A stretch of 64,000 bases of DNA from Phenylobacterium deserti (GTDB taxonomy: Bacteria; Pseudomonadota; Alphaproteobacteria; Caulobacterales; Caulobacteraceae), in assembly GCF_003254705.1 (NCBI RefSeq), contig NZ_QFYR01000005.1, positions 186,001 to 250,000 on the forward strand, in the 5' to 3' direction. The notes under the pieces were generated by a model, which saw only the letters and a program-made list of their open reading frames with translations, ran no database searches and was not told the DNA's origin. Position numbers and translations under genes: made by a program. Positions 1 to 8,549 of this stretch are shown here, piece after piece; position 1 is the stretch's first letter; every line of letters starts with the position of its first letter.

Positions 1-1593
1 CGGTGCGACAATCACGTTCGGATAGTCGGCGCGAATGGACTTGGCCGCGCCTGAAAGAGCCGCGGCGCTGATGTCGATGGGCGCATAGACCGCAACCTGC
101 GGCGCCGCATCCAGGACGATGCGCGTCTTGAGGCTCGCACCGCTGCCGAATTCCACCAGGGCCGCTCCATCAGGGATGACGGCGGCGATGTCCTGCGCCG
201 CGCTACGCAGCAGAGCGAGTTCCGTTCGGGTGGGATAATAGGCCTCCAGCTCACAGATCGCCTCGAACAGGCGCGAGCCTTCGGCATCGTAGAAGTACTT
301 CGGCGGCAGCGCCTTCTGCGGCAGCGACAGTCCTTCCAGCACGTCGTCGCGGAAGGTGCGCCCCTGCGGGACTCCGTCCCTGGCGAGGCGCAGACCGGAG
401 AACATCCAGCGCTGGTGCGGCTGGAAGAAGTTGCGGTAGGTCGCGCGGACATGGCCGGGCGGCGTCACGCAGCAGCCGCCACGCAGCACGAACTGACCAG
501 CCATGAACTTGCCGTTGTACTCGCCCACGGCGCCAGGCGCCGGGCGAAATCCGGGATAAGGACCATAGGCGCTGCGGGTCCACTGCCAGCGAACGTCGAA
601 GATCTGATGCAGGCGCGGATCGGCGGCCGCGTGCTCCCACTCGGCCTCGGTGGGCAGGCGTGCTCCCGACCAGGTGGCGAAGGCGTCGGCTTCAAAGAAG
701 CTGAGATGAGCGACGGGTTGGGCAGGATCCAGCGGACGCAGGCCGTTCAGCGTCATGGCATGCCACCCGCCCTCGCCTTCCTGCCAATAGAGCGGCGCTG
801 TCCAGCCCTCCGCCTGCACGCGGGCCCAGCCTTCCGACAGCCAGAGCTCCGGCCGGCGATAGCCGCCGTCCGCCATGAAGGCGAACCAGTCGGCATTGGT
901 CACAAGCCGGTCCGAGAGGCTGAAGGGCTCCAGCCAGACCTTATGCCGCGGCCCCTCGTTGTCGAACGCAAAGCCCTCGCCGGAATGGCCGATCTCCACG
1001 AGGCCGCCCTCGAAGCCGACAAAGGCGGCGACGCCAGCCTCGTCGACTGACGGCGCGGACCTGGGCGGCGCATAGGCCGGTCGCAGCGGCGACTGGGCGA
1101 AGAGGTGCAGGATGTCCATCAGGATCAGCTCCTGATGCTGCTCCTCGTGGGCCAGACCGAGATCAAGCAGATCGCCCAGACCCTCGTCGCCGGACGATAG
1201 CAGGCGCTGCATGCCGGCGTCGACATGCGCACGATAGGCCATCACGTCGGCCACCGACGGACGGGTCAACAATCCCCGCTGGGGACGCGGCTGCCGCGGC
1301 CCGAGGGCCTCGTAGTAAGAATTGAACAGATAGCCGAACCGCGGGTCGAACGGCTTGTAGCCCGGCAGGTGCGGCGTCAGCAGGAAGGTCTCGAAAAACC
1401 AGGTGACGTGCGCCAGGTGCCACTTGGCCGGACTGGCGTCCGGCATGGACTGGGCGGTCTGGTCCTCCGGCGTGAGGTTGCGCGTCAGCCATTCCGTGCG
1501 GCGTCGAACCGAATTGTAGCGCTCGAACGGGCTGCTCGCGATCTCGTGATCACGATCCGTGTGCGCTTCTTCGGCCGGGTCGAAACGTACCAT
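1..1593 (-). CDS. egtBD: EgtB-EgtD fusion, ergothioneine biosynthesis (partial, runs off the left edge)
   Basis: The frame is open from the ATG at 1593 (GGAGG upstream) to the window edge, 531 codons with no stop. Residues ~12-406 match EgtB, the non-haem iron sulfoxide synthase that joins gamma-glutamylcysteine to hercynine: HLAH at 59-62 and HEEQHQE at 149-155 supply the usual three-His iron site, and the C-terminal FGE-like domain ends with the family-typical FSGLRLARD at 398-406. Six residues later, at about 412, begins EgtD, the SAM-dependent histidine N-alpha-methyltransferase: FRDDVLEGLS, KYFYDAEGSRLFEAI (432-446) and the SAM loop VEFGSGAS (480-487). The two enzymes are usually separate bacterial genes. 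Here the whole pathway core looks like one polypeptide in EgtB-then-EgtD order, the reverse of fungal Egt1. A sequencing error that removed a stop codon is the main alternative; internal re-initiation at a GTG near residue 418 cannot be excluded. Confidence 0.9.
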   Translation of the reverse strand, partial: MVRFDPAEEAHTDRDHEIASSPFERYNSVRRRTEWLTRNLTPEDQTAQSMPDASPAKWHLAHVTWFFETFLLTPHLPGYKPFDPRFGYLFNSYYEALGPRQPRPQRGLLTRPSVADVMAYRAHVDAGMQRLLSSGDEGLGDLLDLGLAHEEQHQELILMDILHLFAQSPLRPAYAPPRSAPSVDEAGVAAFVGFEGGLVEIGHSGEGFAFDNEGPRHKVWLEPFSLSDRLVTNADWFAFMADGGYRRPELWLSEGWARVQAEGWTAPLYWQEGEGGWHAMTLNGLRPLDPAQPVAHLSFFEADAFATWSGARLPTEAEWEHAAADPRLHQIFDVRWQWTRSAYGPYPGFRPAPGAVGEYNGKFMAGQFVLRGGCCVTPPGHVRATYRNFFQPHQRWMFSGLRLARDGVPQGRTFRDDVLEGLSLPQKALPPKYFYDAEGSRLFEAICELEAYYPTRTELALLRSAAQDIAAVIPDGAALVEFGSGASLKTRIVLDAAPQVAVYAPIDISAAALSGAAKSIRADYPNVIVAP

Positions 1594-1716
1594 GAGACGT
1601 CCTCCGCTGCCCCCGCCCGAAGGGGGACATAGCTAAGGCTAATTCCCGCGCGCGCCAACGCCGGTCTTCTGGTCAAGTTTCGGATTCGGTTTGCAGCCAA
1701 GCTAGCAACCGCGGCC

Positions 1717-1741
1717 GGAACGGATGGTGTAGGGCTGCGTT
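1717..1741 (+). promoter_or_regulatory. EcfG-type promoter upstream of ecfG
   Basis: GGAAC (1717-1721) and CGTT (1738-1741) are separated by exactly 16 bases, the published consensus for alphaproteobacterial EcfG/SigT general-stress promoters. It lies 60 bp before the sigma factor's ATG, so it probably gives positive autoregulation. Confidence 0.75.
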
Positions 1742-1801
1742 AGTCCGGCGCCGGAGAGGTAAGGGTTAAGGGCTCTGTAACCGGAGCCGAACGAGGGCAG
1801 C

Positions 1802-2341
1802 ATGACGGCGACGGCCAGCTGGCGGGACGAAGTCGTCGGACTCATTCCAGCGCTCCGGGCATTTGCCTGGTCGCTTAGTCACAATGGGTCCGACGCAGAC
1901 GACCTGGTTCAGGACACGCTGATCAAGGCGTGGACCAACAAGGACAAATTCGAGCCTGGCACCAACCTGCGGGCCTGGCTTTTCACCATTCTGCGGAACA
2001 CCTACTACACCAACGTGCTGCGACGCCGACGCGAAGTCCGCGACGAGCAGGGCGAGTACGCCGGCACGTTGAAGGCCCCGCCGACACAGGACTGGAGCGT
2101 CGCCATGCGGTCGCTGCAAGTGGCCCTGCAGCAGCTGCCGGACGAGCACCGCGAGGCGCTGATTCTGGTGGGCGCCGCAGGTCTGTCCTACGAGGAAGCC
2201 GCCGAGATCTGCGGCTGCGCCCTGGGCACCATAAAGAGCCGGGTGAACCGCGCCCGCGCGCGTCTGTTGAAGATCATGGATGCGGAAGACGCCAACGACG
2301 TGATGGCGCTCGAGAACATGACGGTGGCCGGTCGGGCCTGA
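1802..2341 (+). CDS. ecfG: ECF sigma factor, EcfG/SigT-type (general stress response)
   Basis: 179 aa, starting at the ATG behind GAGGGCAGC. Region 2 is clear near residues 18-60 (ADDLVQDTLIKAW, then LRAWLFTILRNTYY), and region 4 near 110-155 (LPDEHREALILVGAAGLSYEEA, then GTIKSRVNRARARL). The size and motifs fit group ECF15 (EcfG), the sigma factor that drives the alphaproteobacterial general stress response and is released when the PhyR response regulator sequesters the anti-sigma factor NepR. The assignment is strengthened by a NepR-like gene 4 bp downstream on the other strand and by a perfect EcfG-type promoter upstream. phyR is not visible here, whereas in Caulobacter phyR, nepR and sigT are adjacent. 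Confidence 0.88.
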   Translation: MTATASWRDEVVGLIPALRAFAWSLSHNGSDADDLVQDTLIKAWTNKDKFEPGTNLRAWLFTILRNTYYTNVLRRRREVRDEQGEYAGTLKAPPTQDWSVAMRSLQVALQQLPDEHREALILVGAAGLSYEEAAEICGCALGTIKSRVNRARARLLKIMDAEDANDVMALENMTVAGRA

Positions 2342-2345
2342 GCGG

Positions 2346-2510
2346 TCAGCCGCTCTTTTTGAGGCGCTGCTCGTCCGGACCGTCGTCCAGCTGCTCGACC
2401 ACCGAGCGCAGGGTGCTGGGCACGGGGCGGTTCTGCAGGGACCGGAACATGTCCTTCAGCGCCTTGTCGAGCGCAGGCAGCTTGTCGTCGCGTGTGTGGT
2501 TGCGCGTCAT
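2346..2510 (-). CDS. nepR: NepR-like anti-sigma factor
   Basis: A 54-residue protein convergent with the sigma gene, the two stop codons being 4 bp apart. The central stretch LKDMFRSLQNRPVPSTLRSV followed by VEQLDD matches the NepR core, two short helices around a PVP turn that hold EcfG and are captured by phosphorylated PhyR. NepR is usually about 50-65 aa. The usual arrangement is nepR and ecfG co-directional, so the convergent layout is atypical; overlapping 3' ends could give antisense effects. I see no EcfG-type promoter on this strand upstream of the ATG at 2510. Confidence 0.72.
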   Translation of the reverse strand: MTRNHTRDDKLPALDKALKDMFRSLQNRPVPSTLRSVVEQLDDGPDEQRLKKSG

Positions 2511-2672
2511 GCGTCCGACCCCAAGGCAGAGCTCACTATAACTCGAAACCCCCTGTGGGTGAATTGGGCCGCGCCCGCAACCGGCTCAAGGGGTCCTGCG
2601 ACACCACGGAACGCGATAGGAGGTTAAGGAATTGACCGGTCCGACACTCCCCAAAACAAGGAGCGGAGGATC

Positions 2673-3794
2673 ATGGCCAATCGCGACGACTATCGAGGTT
2701 ACCGCGGCGAGCGCCCCGAAACCGGGCGTCAGGATCGCGGACGTGACGACTGGGGCTGGAGCGGCGGACGCGACCAGCGCGGCGGACAGAGCAGCGGACA
2801 AGGCGGCGAGCGTCGCTCGTTCGGCGACGAAGGTCGCTTCAACTCCGACCAGGCTCGCTATGGCGAAGGCTCCCGCGGGGGCCGCGGCGAAGGCGAGATG
2901 GAGCCCTGGCGCCGGGAGCGCTACGGCTCGCGGTTCGATCAGGACCGGGTGAACTACGGCTCCGGCTACGACCGCGAGCGGCAGGAATACGGACGTGGGA
3001 CGCAGGACGAGCGCGGCCGCACTGGCGGCAACCGCGCATCGGAGTCCTACGGCGGCGGCTACGGCGGCCAGGAGTACGGCATGGAAGGCCAGGGCTTCCG
3101 CGACCGCAACTCGGGTGAAGGCCGCACCTATGGCGGCGGTCGCACCGAGCAGCGGGACTGGGGAAACCAGGGCCGCGAACGCTGGCGCGAAGGTCAGGGC
3201 GGTCCCTATGGCGACCTGGAGCTGAACGCCCGCAACAGCGGCATCCAGGAGTTCGGCGCCCCGCACGACTACGCCTATCACCCCAAGGGCAACGAGTTCG
3301 ATCCGGACTACAACCGCTGGCGCGATGAGCAGCTGGCCAGCCACGACCGCGACTATCAGGAGTGGCGCCGGCACCAGCACGAGCAGTACGACAACGAGTA
3401 CCGCCAGTACCGCGCCCAGCGCCGGGACAACTTCGGCACCAGCTTCCAGACCTGGCGCACGCAGCGCACCATGACCCAGGGCGTGGAAAACAACTCCGTC
3501 GCGCCCGGCATGGCGCACGACTCGACCACCGACGTGACCGGCGGCGGCATCGGCGCCGATGCGGGCAAGCCCACGGGCGCACTGGAAGGCCTGGGCGGGC
3601 TGACCCCGAGCTCGACACTGACCCAAACCGGCGGCGGCCATAAGCCGACGGCGCAGGGCTCGTCCACAGGCGACAAGACGCCGGAGTTCGGCCGCGAACC
3701 GACCCAGGTGCAGTCGGCTTCCGACGGCGCCAGCGGCCGCGCGCGGGACCTGACGAACCGCGACGACGACAAGAACGACAAGACCAAGTCGTAA
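2673..3794 (+). CDS. Low-complexity Gly/Arg/Asp-rich protein with charged, aromatic C-terminal segment
   Basis: 373 aa, ATG preceded by GGAGCGGAGG. Residues 1-185 are a Gly/Arg/Asp/Tyr/Gln-rich low-complexity tract without hydrophobic segments. Residues ~205-255 form a distinct Trp/Tyr-rich, charged, probably helical segment with repeated spacing (DYNRWRDEQLASHDRDYQEW, then RRHQHEQYDNEYRQYRAQ). The remaining ~120 aa are a Gly/Thr/Ser-rich tail that includes TDVTGGGIGADAGKP. There is no signal peptide, so it is probably cytoplasmic. The composition resembles disordered stress-associated proteins; no enzymatic motif is seen. It follows the ecfG/nepR pair, which may hint at stress expression, but GGAAC at 2608 lacks a matching -10. 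Function unknown. Confidence 0.75.
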   Translation: MANRDDYRGYRGERPETGRQDRGRDDWGWSGGRDQRGGQSSGQGGERRSFGDEGRFNSDQARYGEGSRGGRGEGEMEPWRRERYGSRFDQDRVNYGSGYDRERQEYGRGTQDERGRTGGNRASESYGGGYGGQEYGMEGQGFRDRNSGEGRTYGGGRTEQRDWGNQGRERWREGQGGPYGDLELNARNSGIQEFGAPHDYAYHPKGNEFDPDYNRWRDEQLASHDRDYQEWRRHQHEQYDNEYRQYRAQRRDNFGTSFQTWRTQRTMTQGVENNSVAPGMAHDSTTDVTGGGIGADAGKPTGALEGLGGLTPSSTLTQTGGGHKPTAQGSSTGDKTPEFGREPTQVQSASDGASGRARDLTNRDDDKNDKTKS

Positions 3795-3817
3795 GCCTCG
3801 TCGATCCGACCAACGAA

Positions 3818-3855
3818 AAGGGCTCCGGCGGGACACCGCCGGAGCCCTTCTTCTT
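3818..3855. terminator. Bidirectional intrinsic terminator
   Basis: A 14-bp perfect stem (3818-3831 with 3836-3849), loop GACA, followed by TTCTTCTT on the plus strand and preceded by AAAA, so it can serve both the plus-strand gene ending at 3794 and the minus-strand gene ending at 3872. Confidence 0.85.
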
Positions 3856-3871
3856 GGCGGAGAGCCCTGCC

Positions 3872-5965
3872 CTATTCGGCAGCGTGGCGCAGGCCAGCCT
3901 CCTCCGAAGGCTCCAGGGCGCACGCGCTGCGGCCTGCGGACACCAGCCGCCAGCCTGCCACGGCGCGACGGGCGGCGTTCTCCAGACCCGGCAGGGTCAG
4001 AGCAAGACCGCCTGCGGCCTGCGGCTCGGCGCTTGGCTGAGCGCGCCCGATATGCGGCACGACCACCGGCTCGACCTTGTAGATGTCCAGGCCGGCCTCG
4101 CCCGCGATGTAGGTTGCAAGCTCGGCCCAGGTGGAGCTCTGCGGCGGCGCCAGACGGAAGCGGCCCGACTTGCCGTCCACCAGCAGGTCGAGAACGGCGT
4201 GCACCGCATCGGGCAGATAGCCGGCCGGGGCGGTGCGGTTGGCCGCAGCGCGGAACACCCCGCCGCCCTCCACGGTCTCCACAACGTGCCGCGCGAACTC
4301 GTGCAGGTCGTGGCGGCCGATGAGCTCGGGCGTTTGCAGGACGATCTCGTTGGCGGCAGGCTCCCGATCGGCGCCGCCGCCCCAGGTGACCAACGGCAGA
4401 CCACGGTCCTGGGCGAGACGCGCCACCTGCGCTCCAGCCGGTCGCGAGCCGGCCAGATTGATGACAGCCCAGGGCTGCGCTTCTGAGATCAGGCGCGCCA
4501 TCTCCTCGCCCACGTCCTCAGCGCAGGCGCTTACGCGCAGATCGACGTGCGGCAGATTCCGAAGCGCCAGAGCGTCCCGGATCGCCTCGGCGGTGGGGCA
4601 GCCGGCGCCTGCAATCAGAATCGGCCGGGCGGCGGCGCCATTCACATCGACCAGCGGGGTTCGCGGGCACGGCTCTTCCAGCGAGAGCGCCTGCTCGAAG
4701 AAGCGATCCTCACGCCGCCACCAGCCCGCGCCGCCGAGCACGGGCGCTTGCGGCGCACCGCCGTGGGCCAAGGTCTTCAGCAGATCGACCATGGTGGTGG
4801 GCTGCGGCTCGCCGGAGCGCAGGTCGAAGATGCCCACCTCGTAATGTCCGGCCTCCTCGGTCAGCAGACGGTTCCAGTCGTAGGAGCCGAGCAGCCCCCA
4901 GGCTGTGACGGCCAGGACCGGGACACCTTCCGCACGGACCGCTTCGACGCTGCGCCAGACTTCCTCGAACCATCGCATCTGCTCTTCGCGGGTGCAGCCG
5001 TTGTGGCATTCGGTGACGGCGATCTGACGGCCATAACGCTCATAGGTCTGCTTGAGCAGGGTCCCGATCCCGAGGGGACCTTCGCGGACCGTTCGCAGGG
5101 CCTCGATGTTGACGTAGGGACCGGGGCCGTCGCCGCCACGCAGGCTGTCCGGATAAAGCTCGACCCGATGGTCCAGCAGTCGCTCGCTGGACAGGTAGTG
5201 GTTCACGCCAAGGACGTCGGGCGGGCAAGGATCGTCCGCGATAGCGCGCAGGCGCTCCTCCAGTCCCCAGGCCGCGATCCGCGCGAACAATGGGTGATCC
5301 GGCGTGACCATCCCGCACAGCAGGTCCCAGGTGATCCAGCGGCGGGCGTTCTCGTAGTCCGCCTGCGCGCGCATGGGCGCTGTCGCGTGGCAGTAGCCGA
5401 GGTCCTCCGTCTGGATCAGTCGCGCCTTCGGATTGAGGGCCCGGATCTCGCGCATGGACAGGCGCGTGGCGTCGACCTGGTTCAGGAGGGCGCGCCAGAA
5501 CGCCCCTTCATTTCGGGTGTGCGGGTACCAGAGGCCATAGAGCGCGCTGAAGCGGGCCGTGGTCAGCGGCTCGTTCACCGGCGTCCAGTCCTCGACCCAC
5601 GGAAAACGCTCGGCGGTTGCACGGGCGTGCATAGCCAACCCGGGTGCGAAGCCCTCGTCGTCTATGAGGCTGGTGTAACGGGGGCCGCTGCCGTGGTGGG
5701 TCAGGCCGACGATCGGCCGCATTCCGAGCCCCAGGATGTGCGGCAGGCGTTCCTCGGCCCAGGTGAAATCCTGGGCGTCAGGCCGCTCGGGCGCGACCTT
5801 TTCCCAAAGAACAGGATAGCGGAGGGATTTCAGGCCCAGATCAGCAAACAGGTCCAGATCGGACAGGCGATCCTGGTGTCCGGAAATCACCGATTGATCC
5901 AAGTAACGGCTGCGCACGCGATTGACCGTGCACTCGTGGCCGCCCCACAGCTCCAAACGCCTCAC
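3872..5965 (-). CDS. GH1-like glycosidase fused to RmlD-like sugar-nucleotide-binding domain
   Basis: 697 aa, GTG start. Residues ~1-400 have a family-1 (clan GH-A) glycosidase pattern: TPVNEP puts the acid/base Glu at 132, and VTECHNG places the nucleophile Glu at 319 in the position of the family's TENG motif. A linker containing WWRRED leads at about 448 to a second domain beginning PILIAGAGCPTAEAI, a Rossmann-type dinucleotide-binding loop like RmlD/NAD-dependent epimerases; later RPAGYLPDAVHAVLD-type segments (here APAGYLPDAVHAVLD) fit that family. No signal peptide, so it acts in the cytoplasm. It is downstream of a GH43-like gene on the same strand (141 bp gap), suggesting joint handling of one oligosaccharide or surface glycan. 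The epimerase-like part lacks an obvious YxxxK, so it may bind sugars rather than catalyse. Confidence 0.8.
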   Translation of the reverse strand: MRRLELWGGHECTVNRVRSRYLDQSVISGHQDRLSDLDLFADLGLKSLRYPVLWEKVAPERPDAQDFTWAEERLPHILGLGMRPIVGLTHHGSGPRYTSLIDDEGFAPGLAMHARATAERFPWVEDWTPVNEPLTTARFSALYGLWYPHTRNEGAFWRALLNQVDATRLSMREIRALNPKARLIQTEDLGYCHATAPMRAQADYENARRWITWDLLCGMVTPDHPLFARIAAWGLEERLRAIADDPCPPDVLGVNHYLSSERLLDHRVELYPDSLRGGDGPGPYVNIEALRTVREGPLGIGTLLKQTYERYGRQIAVTECHNGCTREEQMRWFEEVWRSVEAVRAEGVPVLAVTAWGLLGSYDWNRLLTEEAGHYEVGIFDLRSGEPQPTTMVDLLKTLAHGGAPQAPVLGGAGWWRREDRFFEQALSLEEPCPRTPLVDVNGAAARPILIAGAGCPTAEAIRDALALRNLPHVDLRVSACAEDVGEEMARLISEAQPWAVINLAGSRPAGAQVARLAQDRGLPLVTWGGGADREPAANEIVLQTPELIGRHDLHEFARHVVETVEGGGVFRAAANRTAPAGYLPDAVHAVLDLLVDGKSGRFRLAPPQSSTWAELATYIAGEAGLDIYKVEPVVVPHIGRAQPSAEPQAAGGLALTLPGLENAARRAVAGWRLVSAGRSACALEPSEEAGLRHAAE

Positions 5966-6106
5966 CTACTCACCTCAGCCAAGCGCCGCTGCTTCCGGAG
6001 CGGCCGGAAAGATTTGCTGGAGAAGCCCCGGCTTCCTTGCCCTGTTCCTGGCCCTTTCAGTTGTTGGTTTGGATCACTTCTGCGCCAAGAAGAGGAACCT
6101 GCAGTG

Positions 6107-7543
6107 TCAGGTCGCTGACAGAACCGCCATGGCCGGGTCGAGGCGAACCACCCCAGCTTCGAAGCTGAGCGGCGCGGCCAGCAGCGCGCGGAAGGCCTTG
6201 TAGCCGGCCTCGCCCGGGCGGAAGGCGTGCAGGAAGATGTGGTGGCGCCCGTCCGGACCCATCGCCACGGAAGGGTGGCCCGGTCCCCACCAAGCCTGCG
6301 TTGAACTGAGGAACACCTCCGACGCCTTGCGATAAGGGCCGGTCGGCCGATCCGCCACCGCCGTCCCGATGCCGTAGTGCGAGGTGGAGAAGTCGTTGCC
6401 AGCGTAGAGCAGGTGATATCGGCCGTTCTGCCGGGTGATCCAGACGCCTTCGATCAGGTGCGCCTCCCAGGGCTGATCGTTCTGCAGGATCACCACCGGC
6501 TCGCCGAGCAGGCGCCGACCGTCCGGAGACAGGGCCTGAGCATAGATGCGCGTCTTCAGGGCCCGCAGGATCACCGACAAGTCCATCGCCTCGGCGCCCG
6601 TCGCCCGGGCTTGAAGCTGCTCGAGCCGCGCCTCGAAGCCTTGGAAGTCGGCAGTCGCCGCCTCGATCAGAGGCTGAAGCAGGAAGAACTGCTCCATCGG
6701 CTCGCGATGCGCCGTCCACGGCCAAAGGGTGAGGGCGAGGGACGCGGTCCGAAGGTCCTGCGGCTCTGTGAACAGGGCCGCTGTCCACTCGGGCCGGCGA
6801 GCCAGAAGATCGGCCAGGGCCCGCGGCCAGACGCCGTTGTCATCCTTCTTCCAAACCAGCCAAGGCGCGCCTGCCTCGTCGACGAGGATGTGGGAATCGA
6901 TGACATCGCCGGTCACGAGAGGCGCGTCGTCAGGCGTGAAAGGGCCATCGGGACTGGAGGCGCGCGCCAAGCCGACCGCCAGCGAGCGGTCATGGCTTCG
7001 GGCGGTGAAGCAGACCCACCACTCCGAGCCGACGCGGTGAAGTTCCGGAGCCCAGAAGTCCGCGCGGTTGGGTCCGGTTAGCGTCCAGGCGGGCGTCCGC
7101 CCTTCCGGGAAGACGAAACCCGTCAGGCTCCAGGTCCGCAGGTCCCGCGAAGCCAGGATGGGGAACGCGTCCGGCGCGTCGTTCGAGGTGACCAGCAGGC
7201 GCCAATCCCCCTCCCCGACCTGCACGACGCAAGGATCGCCGTAGCCGTAAAGGATGCGGGGCGACACAGGTGCAGTGAGCAGCGGCGTCAGGGCCGGCGC
7301 GGTCCCCTCCGCCGGCGGCGGCTGGCGCGCGTGGGGCAGCCGAGTCCCGACATCGCGCGCCAATTGCTCGAACAGGTCCAGATAGTCCGGCTGCTCGGCC
7401 CGGGCGAGCACATAGCGACGTACGGGCGCCCCTGCGGCGGCGATCTGGAACACCCGCGAAGGTCCAGCCTCGATGGTTACGGCAAAGGCGGTGGGGGCGC
7501 CGGCCGGCGAGGCGAGATGGATGGGCGAGACCGCCTGGCTCAT
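6107..7543 (-). CDS. GH43-type five-bladed beta-propeller glycosidase
   Basis: 478 aa. Five-bladed propeller signatures of clan GH-F: GYGDPCVV (catalytic base Asp candidate), DFWAPELH, the internal pair SHILVDEAGAPWLVWKK, and WEAHLIEGVW, whose Glu is the likely general acid. The C-terminal blade carries YRKASEVF and GPGHPS, again typical of GH43. Members release arabinose or xylose units from side chains. There is no N-terminal signal peptide, consistent with the neighbouring GH1-like protein also being cytoplasmic. The first ~85 residues (before RILYGYGD) are an extra N-terminal segment of unknown role. Substrate cannot be read from the sequence. Confidence 0.78.
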   Translation of the reverse strand: MSQAVSPIHLASPAGAPTAFAVTIEAGPSRVFQIAAAGAPVRRYVLARAEQPDYLDLFEQLARDVGTRLPHARQPPPAEGTAPALTPLLTAPVSPRILYGYGDPCVVQVGEGDWRLLVTSNDAPDAFPILASRDLRTWSLTGFVFPEGRTPAWTLTGPNRADFWAPELHRVGSEWWVCFTARSHDRSLAVGLARASSPDGPFTPDDAPLVTGDVIDSHILVDEAGAPWLVWKKDDNGVWPRALADLLARRPEWTAALFTEPQDLRTASLALTLWPWTAHREPMEQFFLLQPLIEAATADFQGFEARLEQLQARATGAEAMDLSVILRALKTRIYAQALSPDGRRLLGEPVVILQNDQPWEAHLIEGVWITRQNGRYHLLYAGNDFSTSHYGIGTAVADRPTGPYRKASEVFLSSTQAWWGPGHPSVAMGPDGRHHIFLHAFRPGEAGYKAFRALLAAPLSFEAGVVRLDPAMAVLSAT

Positions 7544-7575
7544 GGGGAACGGCTCCTTGCTGATGCCTAACGCTC

Positions 7576-7600
7576 GGAACAGGCCTGCGCTCTCGCAGTT
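7576..7600 (+). promoter_or_regulatory. Possible EcfG-type promoter (one mismatch)
   Basis: GGAAC at 7576-7580 and AGTT at 7597-7600 with a 16-base spacer; the consensus -10 would be CGTT or GGTT. It lies 25 bp before the 71-residue gene starting at 7625. Confidence 0.4.
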
Positions 7601-7624
7601 GCTTGTGCGAACAAGGAGACCGTC

Positions 7625-7840
7625 ATGTCGGGTCAGGCCAACCCTCCGATCGGCGGCGGCACGAACAGCCGCTCCCTCAACGACACCGTCGCCGAGACCG
7701 GCCCGGGCGTTCCCACGGACGCTGTCGGACCCGGCCAGCTCAGCGTGCCCGAACAGCTGGAGCTGTCCGAGGGTCCGGAAGCCGAGGCGATGGCGGCCAA
7801 GCTGCAGCGCGAAGCGAGCCGATTCCAGGGCGAGCCCTAG
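7625..7840 (+). CDS. Small acidic hypothetical protein (71 aa), possibly stress-induced
   Basis: Starts at the ATG at 7625 behind AAGGAG (7613-7618). The protein is rich in Pro, Gly, Glu and Ser in its first half (GQANPPIGGGTN) and ends in an acidic amphipathic stretch (EAEAMAAKLQREASRFQGEP). No signal peptide, transmembrane segment or known motif. It sits divergently from the GH43 gene, with an EcfG-like promoter just upstream, so it may belong to the general stress regulon. I do not recognise the family. Confidence 0.65.
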   Translation: MSGQANPPIGGGTNSRSLNDTVAETGPGVPTDAVGPGQLSVPEQLELSEGPEAEAMAAKLQREASRFQGEP

Positions 7841-7952
7841 ACGCCCCGCGCCAGAACGGCGTCACGGGCGAGCGGGCAGGCCGCCGCCGTGTCGACGTGG
7901 AAATATTCCCGCCGCAATGCTGGGCCCTGATAGGGTCATAGGAGTGACATCC

Positions 7953-8549
7953 ATGATCCGCGCCCGCGCCGCCCTTTTCGCCCTTGCCGGCGCTCTGACC
8001 GCCCTGCCGGCGCTCGCCCAAACCGGCGCCCCGGCGGATGGGCCGATCGCCACGGCGAGCGGCGGTTCCCCCCTGGCCAGCGGGCGCAGCACCGAAGCTC
8101 AGATCCAGCAGTATCTGGACTCCTCCCCCGCCGCGGAGGCCGAGCGCGCGCCCTTACCGTTGGAAGGCGAGCGGCGCCCGCACGGCGAGGTGTCGGTGGC
8201 GGTGGGCACGGGCGGCTATCGCAGCGGCTATGTTCGCGGCGACTTCCCGGTGGGCAAATCCGGCCAGGTGAGCGTGGCCGTGGGCCAGAGCCGCGGGCGG
8301 GGCTTCTACGCTCCGTACGGCGGCGTTGGCTACGGTGGGCACCCCTATGGCGGCTTCTATGACGGCGGCCCGCGCACCACGACGAACTTCGGGGTGGCCG
8401 CCGAGTTCAGCGGGCGACGCACGGTGGCCGCGGACGATCGGAGCCTGTCCTGCCGCTGGCGTGGCGATTCGGCCCCTCCGCTCGACGGCAGCGAACAAGC
8501 GCGTCAGTCCTGCCCGAGCGGCGACGCACGCGAGGACGCCGGCGGCTAG
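7953..8549 (+). CDS. Secreted hypothetical protein, Gly/Tyr-rich
   Basis: 198 aa. The ATG at 7953 follows GGAG at 7941-7944 and opens a textbook Sec signal peptide: basic MIRAR, hydrophobic ALFALAGALTALPA, cleavage after LAQ near residue 23. The mature part has a polar helix-prone piece (EAQIQQYLDSSPAAEAE), a segment of alternating strands (VSVAVGTGGYRSGY, QVSVAVGQSRGRG) and a Gly/Tyr-rich stretch (YGGVGYGGHPYGGFYDGG), then two Cys residues near the end (SCRWRGD, QSCPSG). The alternating pattern suggests a small periplasmic or outer-membrane-associated beta structure. Function unknown. Confidence 0.75.
   Translation: MIRARAALFALAGALTALPALAQTGAPADGPIATASGGSPLASGRSTEAQIQQYLDSSPAAEAERAPLPLEGERRPHGEVSVAVGTGGYRSGYVRGDFPVGKSGQVSVAVGQSRGRGFYAPYGGVGYGGHPYGGFYDGGPRTTTNFGVAAEFSGRRTVAADDRSLSCRWRGDSAPPLDGSEQARQSCPSGDAREDAGG

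Follow-up and report, generated by a model that had tools for sequence, protein, structure and literature searches.

A 64,000-nucleotide stretch of the Phenylobacterium deserti genome (the window) opens on a reading frame that raises the question of whether egtB and egtD are joined here in one gene, what such a gene would encode, how it arose and how it is controlled. The frame covers 531 codons at window positions 1 to 1593 on the reverse strand and is truncated by the window edge; the original prediction was a single frame of at least that length running from EgtB into EgtD. When the adjacent sequence was read for a stop and the rest of EgtD, both were found: the 555 bases past window position 1 (G000:C7:185446-186000, reverse strand) supply the other 184 codons and the stop, and the full egtB-egtD gene has 715 codons (G000:C7:185446-187593, reverse strand). 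A GGAGG resembling a ribosome-binding site is found at 1601-1605 on the same strand, 7 bases upstream of the start codon, the ATG at 1593.

The EgtB part of the protein takes up residues 24-404 (window 382-1524, reverse strand), and is followed by an interdomain linker of nine residues (405-413, window 355-381, reverse strand) and by the EgtD part, residues 414-714, of which the first 118 are encoded in the window (1-354, reverse strand). The domain edges at 404 and 414 thus place the join about where it had been expected, near 360-420, and direct reading between 360 and 420 found no stop and no frameshift, an outcome in favour of a fusion. One might still suspect that the stop between two ordinary genes was masked by an error in sequencing or assembly, given that adjacent separate genes are the rule in Alphaproteobacteria and that a stop lies right at the junction in some relatives (locus L184 of genome G066 and locus L018 of G055). 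Independent genomes refute such an error, to which we give practically no probability: the junction is unbroken in 26 of 36 genomes of the same genus, own genome included, and in 102 of 149 genomes of the family, with varied linkers. These numbers also bear on whether close relatives keep a separate egtD start, and again favour a fusion.

The 26 genomes were read directly from the DNA, and at one of their loci (L025) the contig ends within EgtB. The other 10 comprise two with gene breaks elsewhere, namely G030, where the junction is open, and G011, where search matches place the gene in pieces, and eight with weak FGE-type matches or none. Among 107 distinct fused loci the linkers measure 9-30 residues (median 15) and differ in sequence.

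Conservation of the fusion in related Caulobacteraceae was looked for in the 149 genomes of at least 90% completeness, at a threshold of 1e-40. A match was found in 120, crossing the junction without a stop in 102 and not doing so in 18. The 102 consist of 78 genomes with one full-length match and 24 with a match beginning at or before residue 327; 40 of them were additionally read from the DNA directly, and none was contradicted. All 22 matching Phenylobacterium genomes in this search are fused. We fetched 17 of the 18 non-crossing genomes, and these hold 15 separate pairs and two cases with only EgtB in the stretch read. That bacterial egtB and egtD are normally separate, as the original prediction had it, is correct for the Alphaproteobacteria as a class, where 124 of the 387 genomes searched match and at least 8 of these are fused, but not for the Caulobacteraceae, where it is the majority form (102/120).

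Outside the family the fusion is scattered. Among the best 80 of 575 loci encoding relatives, a best-scoring choice that favours fusions, 57 are fused and 23 separate; the fused loci outside Caulobacteraceae include 11 from Pseudomonas, three from Luteibacter, one each from a Moraxellaceae and a betaproteobacterial MAG, and those of Mesorhizobium soli and a Rhodospirillales MAG, and three further Pseudomonas loci are separate. Phylum-wide, 9 of 90 matching genomes are fused (397 searched at 1e-100), as is 1 of 30 in the family of G807, a fused genome from another class of the same phylum (120 searched at 1e-100). By annotation, the best 25 of 35 matched plasmid records divide into 20 with two annotated genes and 5 without annotation under the match. 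Fusion was called from a match crossing the junction without a stop, plus direct reading of the DNA. The reported length of the open frame was rejected as a sign of fusion: direct reading shows two genes in each of G302, G368, G275, G335, G415, G419, G231 and G054, for which it ranged from 772 to 990.

We then ask what the fused gene encodes. Pfam recognizes DinB_2 (residues 27-155), FGE-sulfatase (190-324) and Methyltransf_33 (414-714) in the 715-residue protein, and the NCBIfam models identify residues 24-404 as EgtB (TIGR03440, 559.3 bits against a cut-off of 360) and residues 414-712 as EgtD (TIGR03438, 390 bits against 290.9). The FGE-type fold of the EgtB part begins at residue 190. By sequence and by fold, the EgtB part is closest in the PDB to the type II EgtB of Chloracidobacterium thermophilum (6o6l, 6qkj and 8qf6; 50-53% identity), which is however a separate protein without EgtD. 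The N-terminal part is also related to SenA, with 347.9 bits for the fused protein in NCBIfam, and a fused selenoneine enzyme with a SenA-like N-terminal part and a selenium donor might be considered; this score is nevertheless below the model's own cut-off of 420 and far below that for EgtB, and the solved SenA structures are only 27-28% identical, making such an enzyme very improbable.

The residues expected of an active EgtB and EgtD are conserved across 198 distinct two-domain loci (107 fused and 91 separate). His62, His149 and His153 of the DinB_2 domain, which we take to be the iron ligands of EgtB, stand exactly where they had been predicted and, together with Tyr93, Tyr94 and Arg106, are invariant in 107/107 fused and 91/91 separate loci. 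In the EgtD part, Tyr452, Asn562, Tyr602 and Glu676 are invariant in 107/107 fused loci, Met648 is kept in 106/107 and Ser678 in 103/107. These six align with the histidine-pocket positions of Mycobacterium smegmatis EgtD, presumably Tyr56, Asn166, Tyr206, Met252, Glu282 and Ser284, where the alignment takes the PDB chain numbering as two higher than these residue numbers. The M. smegmatis protein (4pim and others) is the closest solved relative of the C-terminal part, but again a separate protein; the PDB title of its entry 4pip (EgtD-M252V,E282A with tryptophan) is consistent with an influence of the Met and Glu positions on substrate selection.

An AlphaFold2 model built with 69 aligned sequences (mean pLDDT 89.5, pTM 0.64) predicts two confidently folded domains and leaves their mutual arrangement unsettled. 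Its best Foldseek matches are type II EgtB (TM by target 0.84-0.87), then M. smegmatis EgtD (up to 0.92). There is also a whole-length match to the bifunctional OvoA_Th2 (8khq), and OvoA has the same order of sulfoxide synthase first and methyltransferase second, so that an OvoA-type enzyme making ovothiol rather than ergothioneine deserves mention. We judge it extremely improbable: the alignments to 8khq have 15-16% identity and an rmsd of about 21, the OvoA N-terminal model of NCBIfam gives the fused protein 81.7 bits against a cut-off of 400, which sets it in another synthase subfamily by curated score, and the methyltransferase part is not that of the ovothiol pathway but EgtD (Methyltransf_33, 365.3 bits), with the M. 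smegmatis pocket residues kept.

Most likely, judging from these domains and residues, a single enzyme makes hercynine and then, from cysteine, hercynylcysteine sulfoxide. The C-terminal EgtD domain would convert histidine into hercynine by three S-adenosylmethionine-dependent methylations; at the N-terminus, the type II EgtB domain with its three-histidine iron site would combine cysteine, hercynine and O2 into hercynylcysteine sulfoxide; and a PLP lyase encoded elsewhere would complete ergothioneine. Cysteine as the sulfur donor is inferred from the likeness to C. thermophilum EgtB, type II EgtB being a user of cysteine according to the relevant part of PMC11993508. A profile search of the genome found no EgtC match over the cut-off, which fits the cysteine route. 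The same search found no EgtE match over the cut-off, the best reaching 80.9 of 400 bits; such weak matches mean little, because the EgtE model also gave sub-cut-off matches in 14/14 control genomes. To the explanation as a whole, a two-domain ergothioneine enzyme whose clade derives from an adjacent gene pair and which is probably under EcfG stress control, we assign a probability of roughly 0.88.

The history of the fusion can be approached through its separate relatives. In 89 of their 91 pairs egtB immediately precedes egtD with both genes on one strand, and in 45 of these 89 the two also share a frame, so that a fusion could result from the loss of a single stop. We propose that the main fused clade arose in this way from an adjacent egtB-egtD pair, by loss of the egtB stop, and that most Caulobacteraceae with these genes have since kept the fusion and some Gammaproteobacteria acquired it by transfer. 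FastTree, run on 147 representatives of which 69 are fused and 78 separate, puts 66 fused loci in one starred clade together with three separate loci. A quick IQ-TREE analysis of 57 selected rows also yields this main clade, again starred, and adds to it the separate row L195, whose place in the larger FastTree tree is elsewhere; in neither tree was the root inferred by the program. Both trees place the fused loci of Gammaproteobacteria within the Caulobacteraceae, close to Asticcacaulis, a position indicative of transfer; they thus suggest that the fusion passed to some Gammaproteobacteria, a direction that we infer.

Three loci within the fused clade are split, and the fusion is therefore not essential. 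They look like re-splits, because the egtB stop is directly followed by a GTG in L184 and overlaps or nearly touches the egtD start in L194 and L200. Outside the main fused clade lie L103, and L116 with L127, each resting on one genome; a search for relatives of G263, which carries L127, returned no other genome of the same genus or family. A single clade for all fusions was considered and rejected: in an AU test on a quick tree, with groups named after the tree was seen, placing L103 within the main clade was rejected strongly (p 8e-45) and placing L116 and L127 there less strongly (p 0.011). The trees suggest that the fusion had one main origin, arose once or twice more and was split again three times.

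Some Caulobacteraceae carry separate pairs on branches that the FastTree tree puts outside the fused clade (L195-L198 of genus g31, L188-L192, L199 and L201), L195 being placed inside by IQ-TREE instead. Their position suggests replacement of the pair or a second origin of it.

Why the fusion was kept is a separate matter. One idea is that it became fixed through channelling of hercynine between the two active sites: consecutive steps are fused, probably more than once in bacteria, and in fungi in the other order. We consider this unlikely, since the linkers are variable at 9-30 residues (that of our gene being short), the predicted model does not fix the arrangement of the domains, split loci occur within the fused clade, and placing the synthase ahead of the methyltransferase just repeats the order found in the gene pair. 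Rather than proven channelling, the likely gain would be a constant 1:1 ratio of the two enzymes and a pathway core contained in one gene.

The upstream region offers a candidate for the control of the fused gene. An EcfG-like ECF sigma factor gene with a match to PhyR_sigma2 (PhyR-like region 2) lies divergently at 1802-2341 on the forward strand. A motif scan for GGAAC-N15-18-CGTT, which we take to be the EcfG consensus, found an exact box directed toward the sigma factor gene (GGAAC-N16-CGTT, 1717-1741, forward strand) and a box with one mismatch directed toward the fused gene (GAAAC-N16-CGTT, 1657-1681, reverse strand). Since the gene's own box is mismatched, and 1.58 exact boxes are expected by chance in 64 kb (one was found), the case for the box rests on its conservation.

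This conservation was set against expectations computed from dinucleotide shuffles. Among distinct Phenylobacterium loci, 28 of 37 have an exact box directed toward the fused gene, against 0.26 expected. The figures are 16 of 39 for the other Caulobacteraceae fusions (expectation 0.25), 3 of 16 for other fusions (0.15) and 0 of 15 for gammaproteobacterial fusions (0.08), and among separate loci 19 of 90 have a box directed toward egtB (0.66). In the opposite direction the corresponding counts are 35/37, 8/39, 5/16, 0/15 and 10/90. Of the distinct Phenylobacterium loci, 27 have 600 or more bases of upstream sequence (12 more have too little flank), and in 24 of those 27 a divergent homologue of the sigma factor lies no more than 900 bases away; elsewhere it accompanies 8/38 other Caulobacteraceae fusions, 3/15 other fusions, 0/15 gammaproteobacterial fusions and 4/94 separate or partial loci. 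These patterns suggest general-stress (EcfG) control of the fused gene in Phenylobacterium, and in Phenylobacterium and Caulobacter the EcfG general stress response probably activates it. A similar case is Sphingopyxis granuli TFA, whose egtB and egtD, there separate, are listed as members of the EcfG general-stress regulon in the part of PMC7083833 concerned with them. Since boxes precede 19/90 separate egtB genes and 0/15 gammaproteobacterial fusions, and since the separate Sphingopyxis genes belong to the regulon, stress control is not tied to the fusion and is probably independent of it.

Several further features lie near the sigma factor gene. Convergent with it is a 54-residue open reading frame (2346-2510, reverse strand) without a Pfam or NCBIfam match, which to our eye resembles the anti-sigma factor NepR. 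Beside these stress genes, positions 2673-3794 (forward strand) encode a protein of 373 residues with a high content of Arg, Gly, Asp and Tyr, also without a match in Pfam or NCBIfam. Farther on, positions 3872-5965 (reverse strand) encode a 697-residue protein that matches glycoside hydrolase family 1 weakly, with 25.3 bits against a cut-off of 22.6, and positions 6107-7543 (reverse strand) encode a glycoside hydrolase of family 43. Rfam gave no match in window positions 1-8000.

Joined egtB and egtD genes have been published for bacteria before: Jones, Doyle and Fitzpatrick (2014, Gene 549:161) reportedly found two independent incidences, which we liken to the present gene on the joining of egtB to egtD. 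Our analysis adds the prevalence of the fusion, its domain order, its probable transfer and splitting, and its EcfG context, and the link to stress is the fresher part. Among the matches listed for the open-access literature, we found no description of an EgtB-EgtD fusion in Caulobacteraceae or of an assay of one, and a single paper was listed for ergothioneine together with EcfG. The EgtBD of an engineering paper was considered as a natural fused enzyme and rejected, the genes being separate in the pertinent part of PMC13209761.

The fungal Egt1 proteins (Neurospora crassa Egt-1, Schizosaccharomyces pombe Egt1 and Aspergillus fumigatus EgtA) likewise unite a histidine methyltransferase and a sulfoxide synthase in one protein and use cysteine as donor, as presented in the sections of PMC5066259 that treat them. 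The original prediction that their domain order is opposite is borne out by A. fumigatus EgtA, described there as starting with the methyltransferase and ending with the FGE-type domain, whereas in our gene EgtB comes first. A more far-reaching picture would make the protein an independently evolved bacterial counterpart of Egt1 with reversed domains, passing hercynine between its active sites, and the gene a transferable one-gene core of ergothioneine synthesis under the general stress response beside its own sigma factor; in this full form we find it doubtful.

In bacteria, then, egtB and egtD are joined in the reverse of the fungal order, and this is the majority form in one family; the fused form has probably moved between classes. 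The existence of natural fused, separate and re-split versions makes the benefit of fusion measurable, and one gene for the first two steps may help production work. For Phenylobacterium, a direct hypothesis for the timing of ergothioneine synthesis is provided by the conserved boxes of EcfG type and by the EcfG-like sigma factor encoded next to the fused gene.
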